NCBI GenBank assembly: GCA_013816855.1
Contig: JACDDT010000003.1
Span: 1-64,000 of the forward strand
DNA: 64,000 nucleotides
Direction of reading: 5' to 3'
Source: Gemmatimonadaceae bacterium
Lineage (GTDB): Bacteria; Gemmatimonadota; Gemmatimonadetes; Gemmatimonadales; Gemmatimonadaceae
Shown: positions 12,937 to 18,874 of the stretch, one piece after another
How positions within the stretch are numbered: position 1 is the first letter of the stretch
Layout of the letters: each line of letters starts with the position of its first letter
Position numbers and translations under genes: made by a program
The notes under the pieces: generated by a model
Told to the model about the DNA's origin: nothing
The model's input: only the letters and a program-made list of their open reading frames with translations
The model's database searches: none

Positions 12937-14199
12937 ATGATTAAGACGATTGCTCTCGCCTACTCAGGCGGCCTCGACACATCCATCATCGTTCCCTGGC
13001 TCAAGGAGCGCTACGACGCGCGTGTGATCTGTGTCGCCGCCGACATCGGTCAGGGTGACGAGCTCGAGGGAGTGCGCGCGAAGGCCATCGCCTCAGGCGC
13101 TGATGAGTGTTATGTCGAGGATCTCCGGCAGGAATTCGTCGAGAATTTCGTTTGGCCGACGCTTCGCGCCGGCGCGATCTACGGCCGCAAATACCTGCTC
13201 GGAACCTCGATGGGCCGTCCGCTCATCGCTCGTCGTCAGGTCGAGGTCGCGCGTAAAGTCGGCGCCGATGCGCTCGCACACGGCTGCACCGGAAAGGGCA
13301 ACGATCAAGTTCGCTTCGAGCTCACCTATGCCGCGTTCGCGCCCGAGCTTCCCATCATCGCGCCGTGGCGCGAGTGGGACATCCGCTCTCGCGAGGATGC
13401 CATCTCCTATGCCGAAGCTCACGGCATTCCGGTGGCCGCTACCCGTGAAAAGATTTATTCGCGGGACCGCAACATCTGGCATATCTCGCACGAAGGCGGA
13501 GTGCTCGAGCAGCCGTCGTCCGCCCCTCCGGATGATTTGTTCATGTTGACGACCGATCCGAAACACGCTCCCGACGAGCCGGAAGAAGTCACTATCGGAT
13601 TCGAAGCGGGCACGCCGGTTTCCGTGAACGGGAAGAAGATGGGCGCCGTCGCTTTGCTCACCGAGCTCAACAAGATCGGCGGCCGTCATGGAGTTGGCCG
13701 GATCGACATTGTCGAAGATCGCCTTGTCGGTATGAAGTCCAGAGGTGTTTACGAAACGCCTGGCGGAACCTTGCTCTACATCGCCCATAGTGAGCTCGAG
13801 CAAATGGTTCTCGACCGACGCACCCTCGCTGCCAAGGACGAGATTGCGCCCCACTACGCGGACATCGTTTACGAGGGACGCTGGTGGAGCATCGAGCGCG
13901 AAGCCTACGACGCGTTCGTGAACGTCACGCAGGAGCGCATCACCGGCGAGGTTGGCCTCAGCCTCTTCAAAGGCTCGGCGACGATAACCGGGAGAACGAG
14001 CCGCCATGCGCTCTACGATGAGCGTTTCGTCACGTTTGGCGAGGACGACGTCTATCAGCAGAGCGATGCGGCCGGTTTCATACGCCTCTATGGACTTCCA
14101 ACGCGCGTGCGCGCGCTGCGCGACCAGGAGCTCGCCGGCGCGAGCGCTGTCGCGGCTTCGCCGGGCACGGGCGAGCCGGCCACATTAGCGACTGTCTAA
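12937..14199 (+). CDS. argG: argininosuccinate synthase
   Basis: [15 protein letters not shown]; family conserved along its length. Confidence 0.96.
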
Positions 14200-14213
14200 C
14201 CGAAGCGCCCCGT

Positions 14214-15605
14214 ATGAGCTCTCCGGAATCACACAAGCTCTGGGGCGGTCGCTTCGCGTCGCCGACCGCGGCCGCGCTCGACGCGCTCAATCGTTCCATC
14301 GGCGTCGATTTTCGCCTCTGGCCGTTCGACGTCAAACTGTCGAAGGCGTGGGCGCTGGGTCTCCGTGAGGCAGGTGTCTTTTCCGCCCAAGAGTGTGAAA
14401 CAATTCGCAAAGGACTCGATTCGGTCGCTGCCCTGCTCGCGAGCGGAAAGATCGTCGACCCTTCCGACGAGGACGTTCACACTCTCATCGACCGGCTTTT
14501 GCACGATGCCGTCGGCGATGTGGCTTCGAAGCTGCACACGGGACGTAGCCGCAACGATCAGGTCGCAACCGACACACGCATGTGGTGTGCGGATGCGTGC
14601 GCGCAGGTTCGGAGCGCTGTGCGCGAGCTGCAGCACACGCTTGTCGTGCGCGCGGAAGAGCTATCGGATGCGGCGATGCCTGCATACACCCATCTACAGC
14701 GCGCCCAACCGGTTCTCGCCAGTCATTGGGTGCTTGCTCACTTCTGGTCTCTAGAGCGTGACATCACGCGACTCGAGTCTGCGCGATCGGCGGCGCTGGT
14801 TTTACCGCTTGGATCGGGCGCGATCGCCGGTTCGGCGTTCAGCGTGCCGCGTGATCTGCTCCGCGCGGAGCTTGGCTTCGAGCGAATCTCGCAAAACAGT
14901 ATCGATGCTGTTGGTGATAGGGATTTTGTTGCCGATCTGATATTCGCGGTGACAATGACCGCGACACACCTTTCCCGCCTCGCCGAGGATTTAATCATTT
15001 TCGGCTCCAGCGAGTTTGGCTTCGTTCGCTTCGGAGACACTTTCTCCACAGGCTCGAGCATGATGCCTCAGAAGCGCAATCCAGACGCCCTCGAGCTGGC
15101 GCGGGGATCTGCCGCACGTGCAAGCGGCGATCTTTTCACGCTTCTCGCGACTCTCAAGGGATTGCCGAGCGGATACAACAAGGATTTGCAGGACGACAAG
15201 CGCGCAGTTTTCGACGCTGTAGATATGATTTTGCTCGTGCTTCCCGCGGTTAGCGGCGCTGTTGGAGAGCTGCGCTTCGATAGCCTGAAAATGCGCGCTG
15301 CCCTTTCGAGTGGGTTGATGGCGACAGACCTCGCCGATTACCTCGTCACGAAAGGCATCTCTTTTCGTGACGCGCATGCCGCAGTCGGTGCGCTCGTGCG
15401 TGAGAGCGAGGAGAAGGGCTGCGAGCTGTCTGCACTTCCCTCTTCATCCTTCACTGCCGCACACGCGACGTTCGGCTCCGACGCATCGGAATGGCTCTCC
15501 GCAGAGAAATCGATCTCGCGCCGCGAAATTGCGGGCGGCACCGGGGGGAAATCGGTAGCGGAACAGCTCAGTGCGGCGCGCGCAACGATGGCGCGCTCAG
15601 CTTAG
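14214..15605 (+). CDS. argH: argininosuccinate lyase
   Basis: GSSMMPQKRNPDALELARG signature. Confidence 0.96.
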   Translation: MSSPESHKLWGGRFASPTAAALDALNRSIGVDFRLWPFDVKLSKAWALGLREAGVFSAQECETIRKGLDSVAALLASGKIVDPSDEDVHTLIDRLLHDAVGDVASKLHTGRSRNDQVATDTRMWCADACAQVRSAVRELQHTLVVRAEELSDAAMPAYTHLQRAQPVLASHWVLAHFWSLERDITRLESARSAALVLPLGSGAIAGSAFSVPRDLLRAELGFERISQNSIDAVGDRDFVADLIFAVTMTATHLSRLAEDLIIFGSSEFGFVRFGDTFSTGSSMMPQKRNPDALELARGSAARASGDLFTLLATLKGLPSGYNKDLQDDKRAVFDAVDMILLVLPAVSGAVGELRFDSLKMRAALSSGLMATDLADYLVTKGISFRDAHAAVGALVRESEEKGCELSALPSSSFTAAHATFGSDASEWLSAEKSISRREIAGGTGGKSVAEQLSAARATMARSA

Positions 15606-15607
15606 CG

Positions 15608-16135
15608 CTAAAACAGTATTCCCAGAACGACGGGCACATAACGCAGCGGTTTTGCATTGTGCTGCGAAACGCTGTTGACTCTGCTCTCCACGAAAAATGC
15701 TTTGCTCGCGAGCGGCAGCGTAAATCCGATTCCGAAATCAAAGCCGAAGCGAATCGTTGATTTTGTAGCCGTGCCGGACGTCATCTTGAAACCCCCAGCC
15801 CCGGCGATGAGGTACGGCTTGAGCGTGAAGCCGGACGTGCTGAAGACGATGTCCGCTGTTCCCCCAACGAATTTGAGATCCGCCTTCTTGACCCCGGCGA
15901 TTGTTTTACCGGGAAATCGGTCGTAACCGACATCAAGTCGCAGTCCGATCGGCGAATCGTCGGACCCGCGAATGAATCCGATGTTGAGGTCGAGACCCTG
16001 ATTCTGGGTATCGCGCAGGCGCCCGATTGGTAGTGAAGGCCCCGCGGCGACGGCAAGCGCGGTCCGGCTTTGTGCCCGGAGAGTAAGTGGGCACAAGAGG
16101 AAAAGGGCGAGCGTTGATTTGACGGCAATGTTCAT
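15608..16135 (-). CDS. outer-membrane beta-barrel protein
   Basis: Signal peptide, alternating beta strands, C-terminal aromatic-rich end. Confidence 0.65.
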   Translation of the reverse strand: MNIAVKSTLALFLLCPLTLRAQSRTALAVAAGPSLPIGRLRDTQNQGLDLNIGFIRGSDDSPIGLRLDVGYDRFPGKTIAGVKKADLKFVGGTADIVFSTSGFTLKPYLIAGAGGFKMTSGTATKSTIRFGFDFGIGFTLPLASKAFFVESRVNSVSQHNAKPLRYVPVVLGILF

Positions 16136-16298
16136 CGTGCGATTCTATCTAGTTGCATTCAATAGAGGTAGTGCCTTTGACGCATTACTACGAATGCGAA
16201 AAGCCTCCGCTTAGCGTGCATTTATTCGTTGACGTCGTTTTCGCTGACATTCCCCCACGAGCCTACCCATTGAATCAACTTGTGCGGCGGCCTATATT

Positions 16299-16326
16299 TA
16301 AATATCCTATTTTTTAAGGATATTTA
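16299..16326 (+). promoter_or_regulatory. AT-rich 10-bp perfect hairpin occluding the Shine-Dalgarno of the 16327 ORF
   Basis: taaatatcct-attttttA-aggatattta; AAGGA SD in the loop/right-arm boundary, paired TCCT in left arm, TTG start at 16327. Confidence 0.5.
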
Positions 16327-16716
16327 TTGGCACGGGGCTATACTGTTGCTACTATTGCACTTGCGCTCGACATCTCGGCGAAATGGGTCGACAACGTGCT
16401 CTCCCACCAAACCATCCCGGGGGTCACTCAGTCCCGTCAAGGTGTTCCGCGCCGAATCTCTTTTGAGGGAGCCTTCGTGTTGTGGGTTGTGAGCAGGCTG
16501 TCGGAATCGCTCAGAATCCCCGCCGATCTCGCGGTTTCGGGAGCCCAAGCTCTGGCTCAAACCGGCTCTTGGGAGGCCGGCGCGTGGCTGACGGTCAGCC
16601 TCGACCTGGCTACTGCGATGAACGAGCTGCAATCGCGACTCGCCTATGCCGTGGAGGCCGCCCCCATGCCGAAGCGGGGACGACCACCAGCAAAAGCAAA
16701 ACGGGGCGCCGATTAA
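16327..16716 (+). CDS. small putative HTH DNA-binding protein (129 aa)
   Basis: TTG start with AAGGA SD 6 nt upstream; YTVATIALALDISAKWVDNVLSHQTIPGV resembles a wHTH; basic tail. Confidence 0.6.
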   Translation: MARGYTVATIALALDISAKWVDNVLSHQTIPGVTQSRQGVPRRISFEGAFVLWVVSRLSESLRIPADLAVSGAQALAQTGSWEAGAWLTVSLDLATAMNELQSRLAYAVEAAPMPKRGRPPAKAKRGAD

Positions 16717-16726
16717 GGCGCCCCGT
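16697..16726 (-). terminator. intrinsic terminator for the cold shock gene
   Basis: Perfect stem acggggcgcc/ggcgccccgt followed on the minus strand by ttttgctttt. Confidence 0.7.
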
Positions 16727-16752
16727 CTAGTGCTGGTGAAAAACGAAGCCGA

Positions 16753-16962
16753 TTAGCTGGCCTTCGTCACGTTCTCCGCTGCAGGACCCTTCTGGCCCTC
16801 GACAATGTCGAACTCAACAGCGTCGCCTTCGGCGAGGGACTTGAATCCCGAGCCAGCGATCGCGCTGTAGTGAACGAAGCAATCCTTCTGCCCGTTGTCA
16901 GGGGTGATGAAACCAAAGCCCTTCGCATCGTTGAACCACTTCACCTTGCCGGTCGTACGCAT
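16753..16962 (-). CDS. cold shock protein (CspA family)
   Basis: [31 protein letters not shown]. Confidence 0.95.
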
Positions 16963-17146
16963 TCCCTACTCCTGGTAAAAATGTCTCGGGAGCGGAACTA
17001 CGCCCGACCCTCGACAATCTGTTACGCGAGACACAACGCCTCACGCTTGAATAGAACGAACCCGCCCCGAAGCTCTTCCATCGGATGACGCATTCGTTCG
17101 ACTAGCTCTAAAAGTAGTACCGACCCTCTAGGTGGACAATAGACAG

Positions 17147-17557
17147 TTATGGCTGTACTGCCCGCACGGCGGTGACGAAATACTCAGTTTCCCCGAAGCA
17201 GGACGTCGGAATACCCCTGTGCTGGTCATAACTCAGCGAAACTCGCTTGCCTACGTCCTTTTCGATTTCTCCTGCAATCGAATCGTTGCGAACCGTGAAT
17301 CGAAAAATCTCCGGCATCGTTCCCGGAAGGTTGGCCATCGCCAGCTCCCCTTCCCAAGTTTTACAAAGCCAGCCTTTCTTGGAAAGCTTCTGAACGAAGC
17401 CTCCCCGCTCGCCGCGCGAATACGAGTATCCCAGCGTCACCCACGTCCAGAGCGAAAAAATCACCAGTGGGACGAGCAGGACGATTACCGCGAGAGTCAA
17501 AATCTTGTGCCTGTTCCGCTCGCGCGGCGCAGCAACGGGAGTGTCTGTTTCGGTCAT
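17147..17557 (-). CDS. conserved membrane-anchored hypothetical protein
   Basis: Single N-terminal TM helix then soluble domain; divergent from ispG. Confidence 0.65.
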
Positions 17558-17638
17558 AGTCAGGGATTATGGTCGTCTCCGTGCTCTGCATCGTTCGCGC
17601 CGGGAATTAGCTTTCACCTGTCCCTCACCGCAAGCGCG

Positions 17639-18874
17639 ATGACTGTACCCCAGAGAAGAAAAACCCCAACGGTGATGGTCGGCGGCGTGGCCGTCGGCTC
17701 GGAGCATCCGGTTGTCGTTCAGTCGATGACTAACACGGATACTGCCGACGCGAAAGGCACTGCTGAACAAATCGCATTGCTCGCCGGGGCAGGGTCAGAA
17801 ATCGTTCGCATTACCGTCAACACCGACGAAGCTGCCGCGGCCGTTCCCGAAATCGCCGAGCGTCTCGCCGATCTTGGCGTCACCGTTCCCATTGTCGGTG
17901 ACTTTCACTACAACGGTCATCTGCTGCTGCATCGGCACCCGCTCGCGGCCGTCGCGCTTGCGAAGTATCGCATCAATCCCGGGAACGTCGGCACGAAGCG
18001 GCGCGACGAAAATTTCCGCACCATCGTTGCGATCGCGGCGGCAAATGGAAAAACGGTTCGCATCGGCGTGAATTGGGGTTCGCTAGATCAGGATCTCCTC
18101 ACCGAGCTTATGGACGAAAACGCGCGGAGCGGGGAAGGGCGCGACGCAAAATCCGTTTACATCGAGGCAATGCTTCAGAGCGCGCTGCGCTCGGCGGTTC
18201 TTGCCGAAGAAGCGGGGCTCGGCCACGACCGCATCATCATCTCCGCTAAAGTCTCGGGCGTACGCGATCTTGTTCAGGTGTATCGGGATCTCGCGAGCCG
18301 CTGCGATTACCCGCTGCACCTTGGATTGACAGAGGCGGGACTTGGCACGAAGGGAATCATTGCAAGCTCGGCGGCGCTCTCCGTTCTGCTCAGTGAGGGG
18401 ATCGGTGACACCATCCGCGTATCGCTAACGCCACGACCGAATGGCGATCGCTCTGAGGAGGTGCGAGTCGCCCAGCAAATTCTGCAATCGCTTGAGCTGC
18501 GTAACTTCGCGCCACAGGTCACCGCGTGTCCCGGCTGCGGCAGGACTACGTCGACATTCTTCCAGCACATGGCCGAGGACATACAAAATTACTTGAAGGA
18601 GCAGATGCCGCAGTGGCAGTCGCGCTATCCGGACGTCGTCAACATGAAGGTCGCGGTCATGGGATGCGTCGTGAACGGTCCGGGAGAATCAAAGCATGCC
18701 AACATCGGAATCTCCCTCCCCGGCACGTTCGAAGATCCGAAAGCCCCTGTTTACATTGACGGGGCGCTGTCGGTAACGCTGAAGGGCGATTCGATTGTGC
18801 CGGAGTTTTTGCGAATTCTCGACGATTATGTCGAGCGCAACTACAGGTCAGCAGCGGTATCTGCCACCGTCTAA
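17639..18874 (+). CDS. ispG: 4-hydroxy-3-methylbut-2-enyl diphosphate synthase
   Basis: [28 protein letters not shown] and [20 protein letters not shown]; start at [10 protein letters not shown]. Confidence 0.94.

Follow-up and report, generated by a model that had tools for sequence, protein, structure and literature searches.

What is the function of a perfect, AT-rich inverted repeat (IR) that runs up to the start codon of a small gene? The repeat lies in a window of 64,000 nt (the whole stretch of Gemmatimonadaceae DNA analysed), and an earlier note had described it as a hairpin that sequesters the Shine-Dalgarno (SD) sequence of a helix-turn-helix (HTH) protein gene, possibly as a thermosensor; a DNA operator for the encoded protein was its alternative reading. 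Comparison with homologous loci across this soil-dwelling family supports that alternative. We conclude that the IR is very probably an autoregulatory operator, to which the encoded MerR-like protein would bind as a dimer to repress its own gene. The element, its predicted promoter and the gene are:

16270–16275, + strand: predicted −35 box TTGAAT, from a consensus scan
16293–16298, + strand: predicted −10 box TATATT, from a consensus scan, 17 bp after the −35 box and directly before the IR
16299–16308, no strand assigned: IR left arm, TAAATATCCT, left half-site of the proposed operator; perfect IR, with the core (A/T)ATCCT conserved in homologous loci
16309–16316, no strand assigned: IR spacer, ATTTTTTA, 8 bp, AT-rich; in relatives its length is fixed and its sequence free
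16317–16326, no strand assigned: IR right arm, AGGATATTTA, right half-site, with AGGA at the expected SD place
16327–16716, + strand: gene of a 129-aa protein, the proposed repressor of its own gene; open reading frame from TTG, homologue alignment

The 10-bp arms of the IR (16299–16326) are 100% complementary with 8 nt between them, and the repeat ends one base before TTG 16327, exactly as first described. The left-arm TCCT (16305–16308) does pair with AGGA as had been claimed; AGGA (16317–16320) lies entirely within the right arm, its first A having been put one base earlier, as AAGGA, in the earlier note. This is the only perfect IR in the 64-kb window with arms of at least 10 bp, a loop of 3–12 nt and at least 8 A/T of 10, and none turned up in ten first-order Markov sequences as long as the window. 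The RNA fold of 16280–16350 has an energy of −20.2 kcal/mol (z = −2.4 against shuffles). It is its conservation in relatives, and not these single-sequence statistics, that marks the IR as functional. Shortness is the one property that would suit a chance or compositional repeat without function; such a repeat is not expected by chance in the window, and conservation with a fixed spacer in at least ten genera makes its probability negligible.

The TTG at 16327 falls in the alignment column that holds the ATG of the homologues, which supports it as the true start. AlphaFold2, run on seven sequences, gave a model of mean pLDDT 82.7. Its predicted helix-turn-helix has a wing of short strands and is followed by two helices, a beta hairpin and a long helix; the RGRPP tail is C-terminal. 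The leading fold matches in the PDB are MerR-type regulators, headed by CvkR (7xn2; E 0.0096, probability 1.00); the matches are weak by E-value, and the N-terminal winged HTH is MerR-like by prediction. R117, G118, R119 and P120 are invariant in 21 aligned homologues, and this RGRP core within a basic, proline-rich stretch resembles an AT-hook, although the Pfam AT_hook model gave only E 0.086, in two members. No family scored above cut-off for the protein in Pfam, NCBIfam (MerR models of both included) or PADLOC. A match to 'Pertussis toxin S5' (E 0.07) fell below cut-off and was dismissed as noise. A PDB sequence search returned no more than low-complexity-like hits to designed repeat proteins. 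Literature searches turned up no relevant work on AT-hook regulators of Gemmatimonadota or on MerR antitoxins with an AT-hook. In two homologous loci, L008 (ATC GCT AGG) and L010 (ATC CCA CGG), the aligned start is ATC, with no ATG, GTG or TTG; this is either a rare start codon or a sequence error.

The protein profile matched in 98 of 179 Gemmatimonadaceae genomes, usually with one full-length copy per genome; second, weaker matches mostly belong to a related antitoxin-like group of 160–220 aa, described below. An alignment of 21 rows proved too diverse and a narrower one led to six named loci; among named records, metagenome-assembled genomes of Gemmatimonadaceae come closest. We compared 75 upstream regions of homologues, in which the profile set the position of the gene start. 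Exact TCCT-N-AGGA occurred 51 times at spacer 8, against 0–1 times at each other spacer from 3 to 13. The exact-match table is used here in place of a variable-spacer score over the whole sequence, for which the threshold was loose. Inverted symmetry in the last 60 nt was likewise seen only around an even-numbered centre, odd spacings being at shuffle level. While the length of 8 is constant, the spacer sequence varies between loci, with 76% A+T compared with 40% in the flanking DNA. The exact TCCT-N8-AGGA sites stand in loci of at least ten genera.

Of these loci, 53 scored for a site next to the start codon and 22 for an upstream copy, with 19 having both. Start-proximal sites are present in genera g1, g2, g6, g9, g13, g14, g19, g23, g25, g28, g30 and g58; no recognisable one was found in g18, in any of the seven g12 loci or in five g13 loci. 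They always end within ∼ 7 bp of the start codon, with AGGA at SD distance. The upstream copy lies 28–49 bp from the start-proximal site in 19/53 loci, at centre-to-centre distances of 28 (four loci), 36 (three), 45 (two), 47 (five), 48 (two) and 49 (three). These copies retain the same letters, AGGA and the AT-rich spacer included, without any start codon after them, and in L025, L081 and L088 it is the upstream copy that persists, the site at the start codon having disappeared or become very weak. In two loci both half-sites have changed symmetrically (TCCG/CGGA in L113, TCG/CGA in L110).

To a strict form of the motif, WWWATCCT-N8-AGGATWWW, there were 36 matches in 33 of the 178 family genomes scanned, and all 36 lie directly upstream of the HTH gene; the control, with the motif read backwards, produced six matches in these genomes. 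The source genome holds one strict site. Allowing two mismatches gave 32 sites in that genome, against five for the reversed pattern. These were not read as a regulon, since all but two of them carry two mismatches and the reversed pattern makes no fair control.

TTGAAT-17-TATATT has one of the two best promoter scores among the 53 loci. Counted from the left edge of the 24-bp site, TTG peaks at −31 (8/53 loci, level with −8; mean 1.1 per position) and TANNNT at −8 (9/53 loci; mean 1.4), an arrangement that matches a 17-bp promoter spacer. With the −10 box placed at −12 to −6, promoter scores above the shuffle threshold were obtained for four loci against 0.4 expected, among loci that are related. 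Since transcription is expected to start 6–8 nt past the −10 box, which ends at 16298, the start should lie at about 16304–16306, inside the left arm, as predicted from the consensus promoter. The predicted spacer of 17 bp is not elongated (≥ 19 bp) as at MerR promoters, and the site follows the −10 box; some MerR-like repressors likewise depart from the elongated-spacer rule (PMC9938897).

These observations suggest how the operator might work. A dimer of the MerR-like protein would read the two TCCT/AGGA half-sites across the fixed 8-bp AT-rich spacer, with the C-terminal AT-hook perhaps contacting the minor groove of the A/T tracts. Because the site starts right after the −10 box and covers both the predicted transcription start and the SD, bound protein would block RNA polymerase and lower transcription of its own gene. 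In several related genera two tandem sites may do the same job. It is the fixed spacer, the copies distant from an SD, the restriction of the motif to one gene, the adjoining promoter and the MerR-like protein taken together that lead us to this reading. What we take directly from sequence is the dyad with its fixed spacer, the tandem copies, the confinement of the strict motif to this gene and the predicted fold; the position of the promoter is inferred from the consensus boxes. Against the operator, start-proximal AGGA stands at SD distance, so translation may explain part of the conservation; in genera with two sites, or with read-through from argH, the start-proximal IR would be transcribed whole; the promoter is predicted from consensus only, the loci are related, and the g12 and five g13 loci have no recognisable start-proximal site.

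RNA thermometers of the ROSE and FourU types cover the SD with a hairpin, and the IR is like them in this respect. An RNA thermosensor or SD-sequestering hairpin acting alone, in which the left arm pairs with AGGA and opens by temperature or another signal, would account for the exact pairing of TCCT with AGGA and for an SD that is 99% paired at 37°C in the modelled full-length leader. The same model leaves the SD 95–96% paired at 65°C and hence provides no switch. The modelled hairpin stays closed from 5 to 65°C, so that the thermosensor claim was not upheld; if transcribed, the hairpin could hide the SD, according to this model, yet would not act as a thermometer. Unlike known RNA thermometers, the IR has a long, perfectly paired stem that stays unmelted at the modelled temperatures and a fixed loop of 8 nt, has copies away from an SD and matches no Rfam family (no match in the Rfam search was near the gathering score). 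Left–right covariation was seen at arm position 1 of the start-proximal sites (p = 0.002, uncorrected for relatedness), and left–right matches at arm positions 2 and 3 of the upstream copies were above independence. Covariation had been proposed as a check on the hairpin; it is present, but it does not decide between RNA and DNA because the symmetric half-sites of a dimer would covary too. In the arms of the start-proximal sites, non-G-U mismatches outnumber G-U pairs by 61 to 8, which counts against an RNA stem. The fixed spacer length with free spacer sequence, the SD-less upstream copies and a sigma-70-like promoter that places the predicted start within the left arm argue together against SD sequestration as the main reading, and we consider a hairpin acting alone highly improbable.

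The IR could also be both things at once, a DNA operator and, in longer transcripts arising by read-through or at two-site loci, a hairpin that lowers translation. This fits the site ending so close to the start codon with AGGA at SD distance, as well as the argH end lying 45–116 bp upstream in some loci; in the model, transcripts starting at 16304 or 16305 still have 98% or 94% of the SD paired at 37°C (68% from 16306). However, the position and the AGGA follow equally from a short leader behind a promoter covered by its operator, and upstream copies carry the same AGGA; we regard a dual element, with its putative translational control, as rather unlikely. An operator for a different, unlinked regulator would be compatible with a link between protein and site that is drawn from sequence. 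On the other side, the strict motif stands only before the HTH gene and nowhere else in the searched genomes, and the dimer-type fold agrees with self-control, as do the palindromes that homologues have at their start codons; such a regulator is improbable. The autoregulatory operator remains our preferred explanation. It offers a testable operator and regulator for a conserved Gemmatimonadaceae protein family without a Pfam or NCBIfam model, and a worked example of how an operator in DNA can be distinguished from a hairpin in RNA next to a start codon, by a constant spacer length and by copies lying apart from the ribosome-binding site.

Two further features lie downstream of the gene:

16699–16728, no strand assigned: G+C-rich hairpin between convergent genes, from a terminator scan and IR search; overlaps the 3′ end of the HTH gene
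16753–16962, − strand: convergent cold-shock protein gene (Pfam CSD, 9e-32), outside the proposed regulatory unit

The Pfam match agrees with the assignment of the convergent neighbour to the cold-shock family in the earlier note. The gene lies 36 bp past the end of the 129-aa open reading frame, and the hairpin at 16699–16728 resembles, on the minus strand, a terminator of the cold-shock gene. A link between cold shock and the IR was rejected, as the neighbour is convergent and the motif occurs only before the HTH gene. Nearly all homologous loci with enough sequence have argH upstream and the convergent cold-shock gene downstream, and many also keep an outer-membrane-like gene between argH and the HTH gene, plus ispG beyond. 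In the window (12937–18874) the order is argH, outer-membrane-like gene, HTH/AT-hook gene, convergent cold-shock gene, membrane protein and ispG, an arrangement shared by most loci of the genus and, for the greater part, by the family. There is no toxin gene in the same operon: both in the window and in nearly all homologous loci with sequence, the gene that comes next is the convergent cold-shock gene.

The second group of proteins, of 160–220 aa, has the HTH, the middle part and the AT-hook-like tail in common with the 129-aa protein (hhalign probability 98.5, E 2.3e-15) and mostly carries an extra C-terminal stretch. Its loci are L155–L160 and L162–L171 in other genomes and L161 in the source genome. 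Among six loci read (L155–L160), a nucleotidyltransferase-like frame was recognised directly downstream in L155, L159 and L160, that of L159 matching Pfam AbiEii at 5e-5. The antitoxin-like frame of L158 (G129:C5:46462-47988) continues into sequence similar to a portion of its relatives' nucleotidyltransferase, which looks like the remnant of a decayed partner gene now fused to it. Eight of the 16 distinct group loci have a long AT-rich palindrome, often around TCTA-N-TAGA, 0–5 bp before the start codon, and three more have CCTAC-AAA-GTAGG somewhat further upstream, the remainder being without a clear palindrome. L161 (G000:C12:2601-3014), a group member at a contig end, has such a palindrome. 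The 129-aa family is thereby linked to antitoxin-like proteins with start-codon palindromes of their own, which counts in favour of the operator; protein and operator look as if they had co-evolved.

AbiEi and Rv2827c are antitoxins of DUF1814-nucleotidyltransferase toxin–antitoxin systems. They have been proposed or shown to repress their own operons by way of inverted repeats overlapping the transcription start and extending to the start codon; Rv2827c has two pairs of such repeats (PMC7319586). The plan proposed here is the same, including more than one repeat set in some cases, and homologues of the 129-aa protein adjoin AbiEii-like nucleotidyltransferases. Unlike AbiEi, the 129-aa gene has no adjacent toxin partner and the protein lacks the C-terminal extension of its relatives; TCCT-N8-AGGA also differs from the 23-bp AbiEi repeats, and the fold here is MerR-like by prediction. 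By fold, the closest solved structure is CvkR (Alr3614; PDB 7xn2), a MerR-type repressor of type V-K CRISPR-associated transposons, which binds a palindrome as a homodimer and loses binding when the spacer length is changed (PMC9938897). The 129-aa protein would resemble CvkR in its predicted MerR-type winged HTH and in binding, as a dimer, a palindrome whose spacer length matters. CvkR binds AnnACATnATGTnnT in the cas12k and tnsB promoters, its own promoter not being bound (PMC9938897), and, unlike the 129-aa protein with its AT-hook-like tail, has no AT-hook according to a text search of that paper. For the MerR-like HnoC and McdR, the palindromes overlap the transcription start and the −10 box (cited in PMC9938897). 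We tentatively describe the 129-aa protein as a possible orphan relative of antitoxin-type regulators, retained in Gemmatimonadaceae at a constant position between argGH and the cold-shock gene, whose MerR-like HTH and AT-hook would form a switch with itself as the sole strong genomic target.

Two sets of loci show other conserved upstream sequences. The g12 loci (L029, L079, L082, L083, L086, L089 and L090) have no TCCT-N8-AGGA. Common to them are a TTGACA box resembling a −35 and, ahead of the start, a conserved stretch like GAGTTTT.(G/T)TTATAATC; operator and HTH may have changed together, KKDLDN replacing KWLDN in L029. A GGC(A/C)(C)AATATAA element, conserved in part of the genus and absent from the window, lies ∼ 70–85 bp upstream of the start in L002–L004, L006, L008–L011, L013 and L016 and would be another promoter or the site of another factor.
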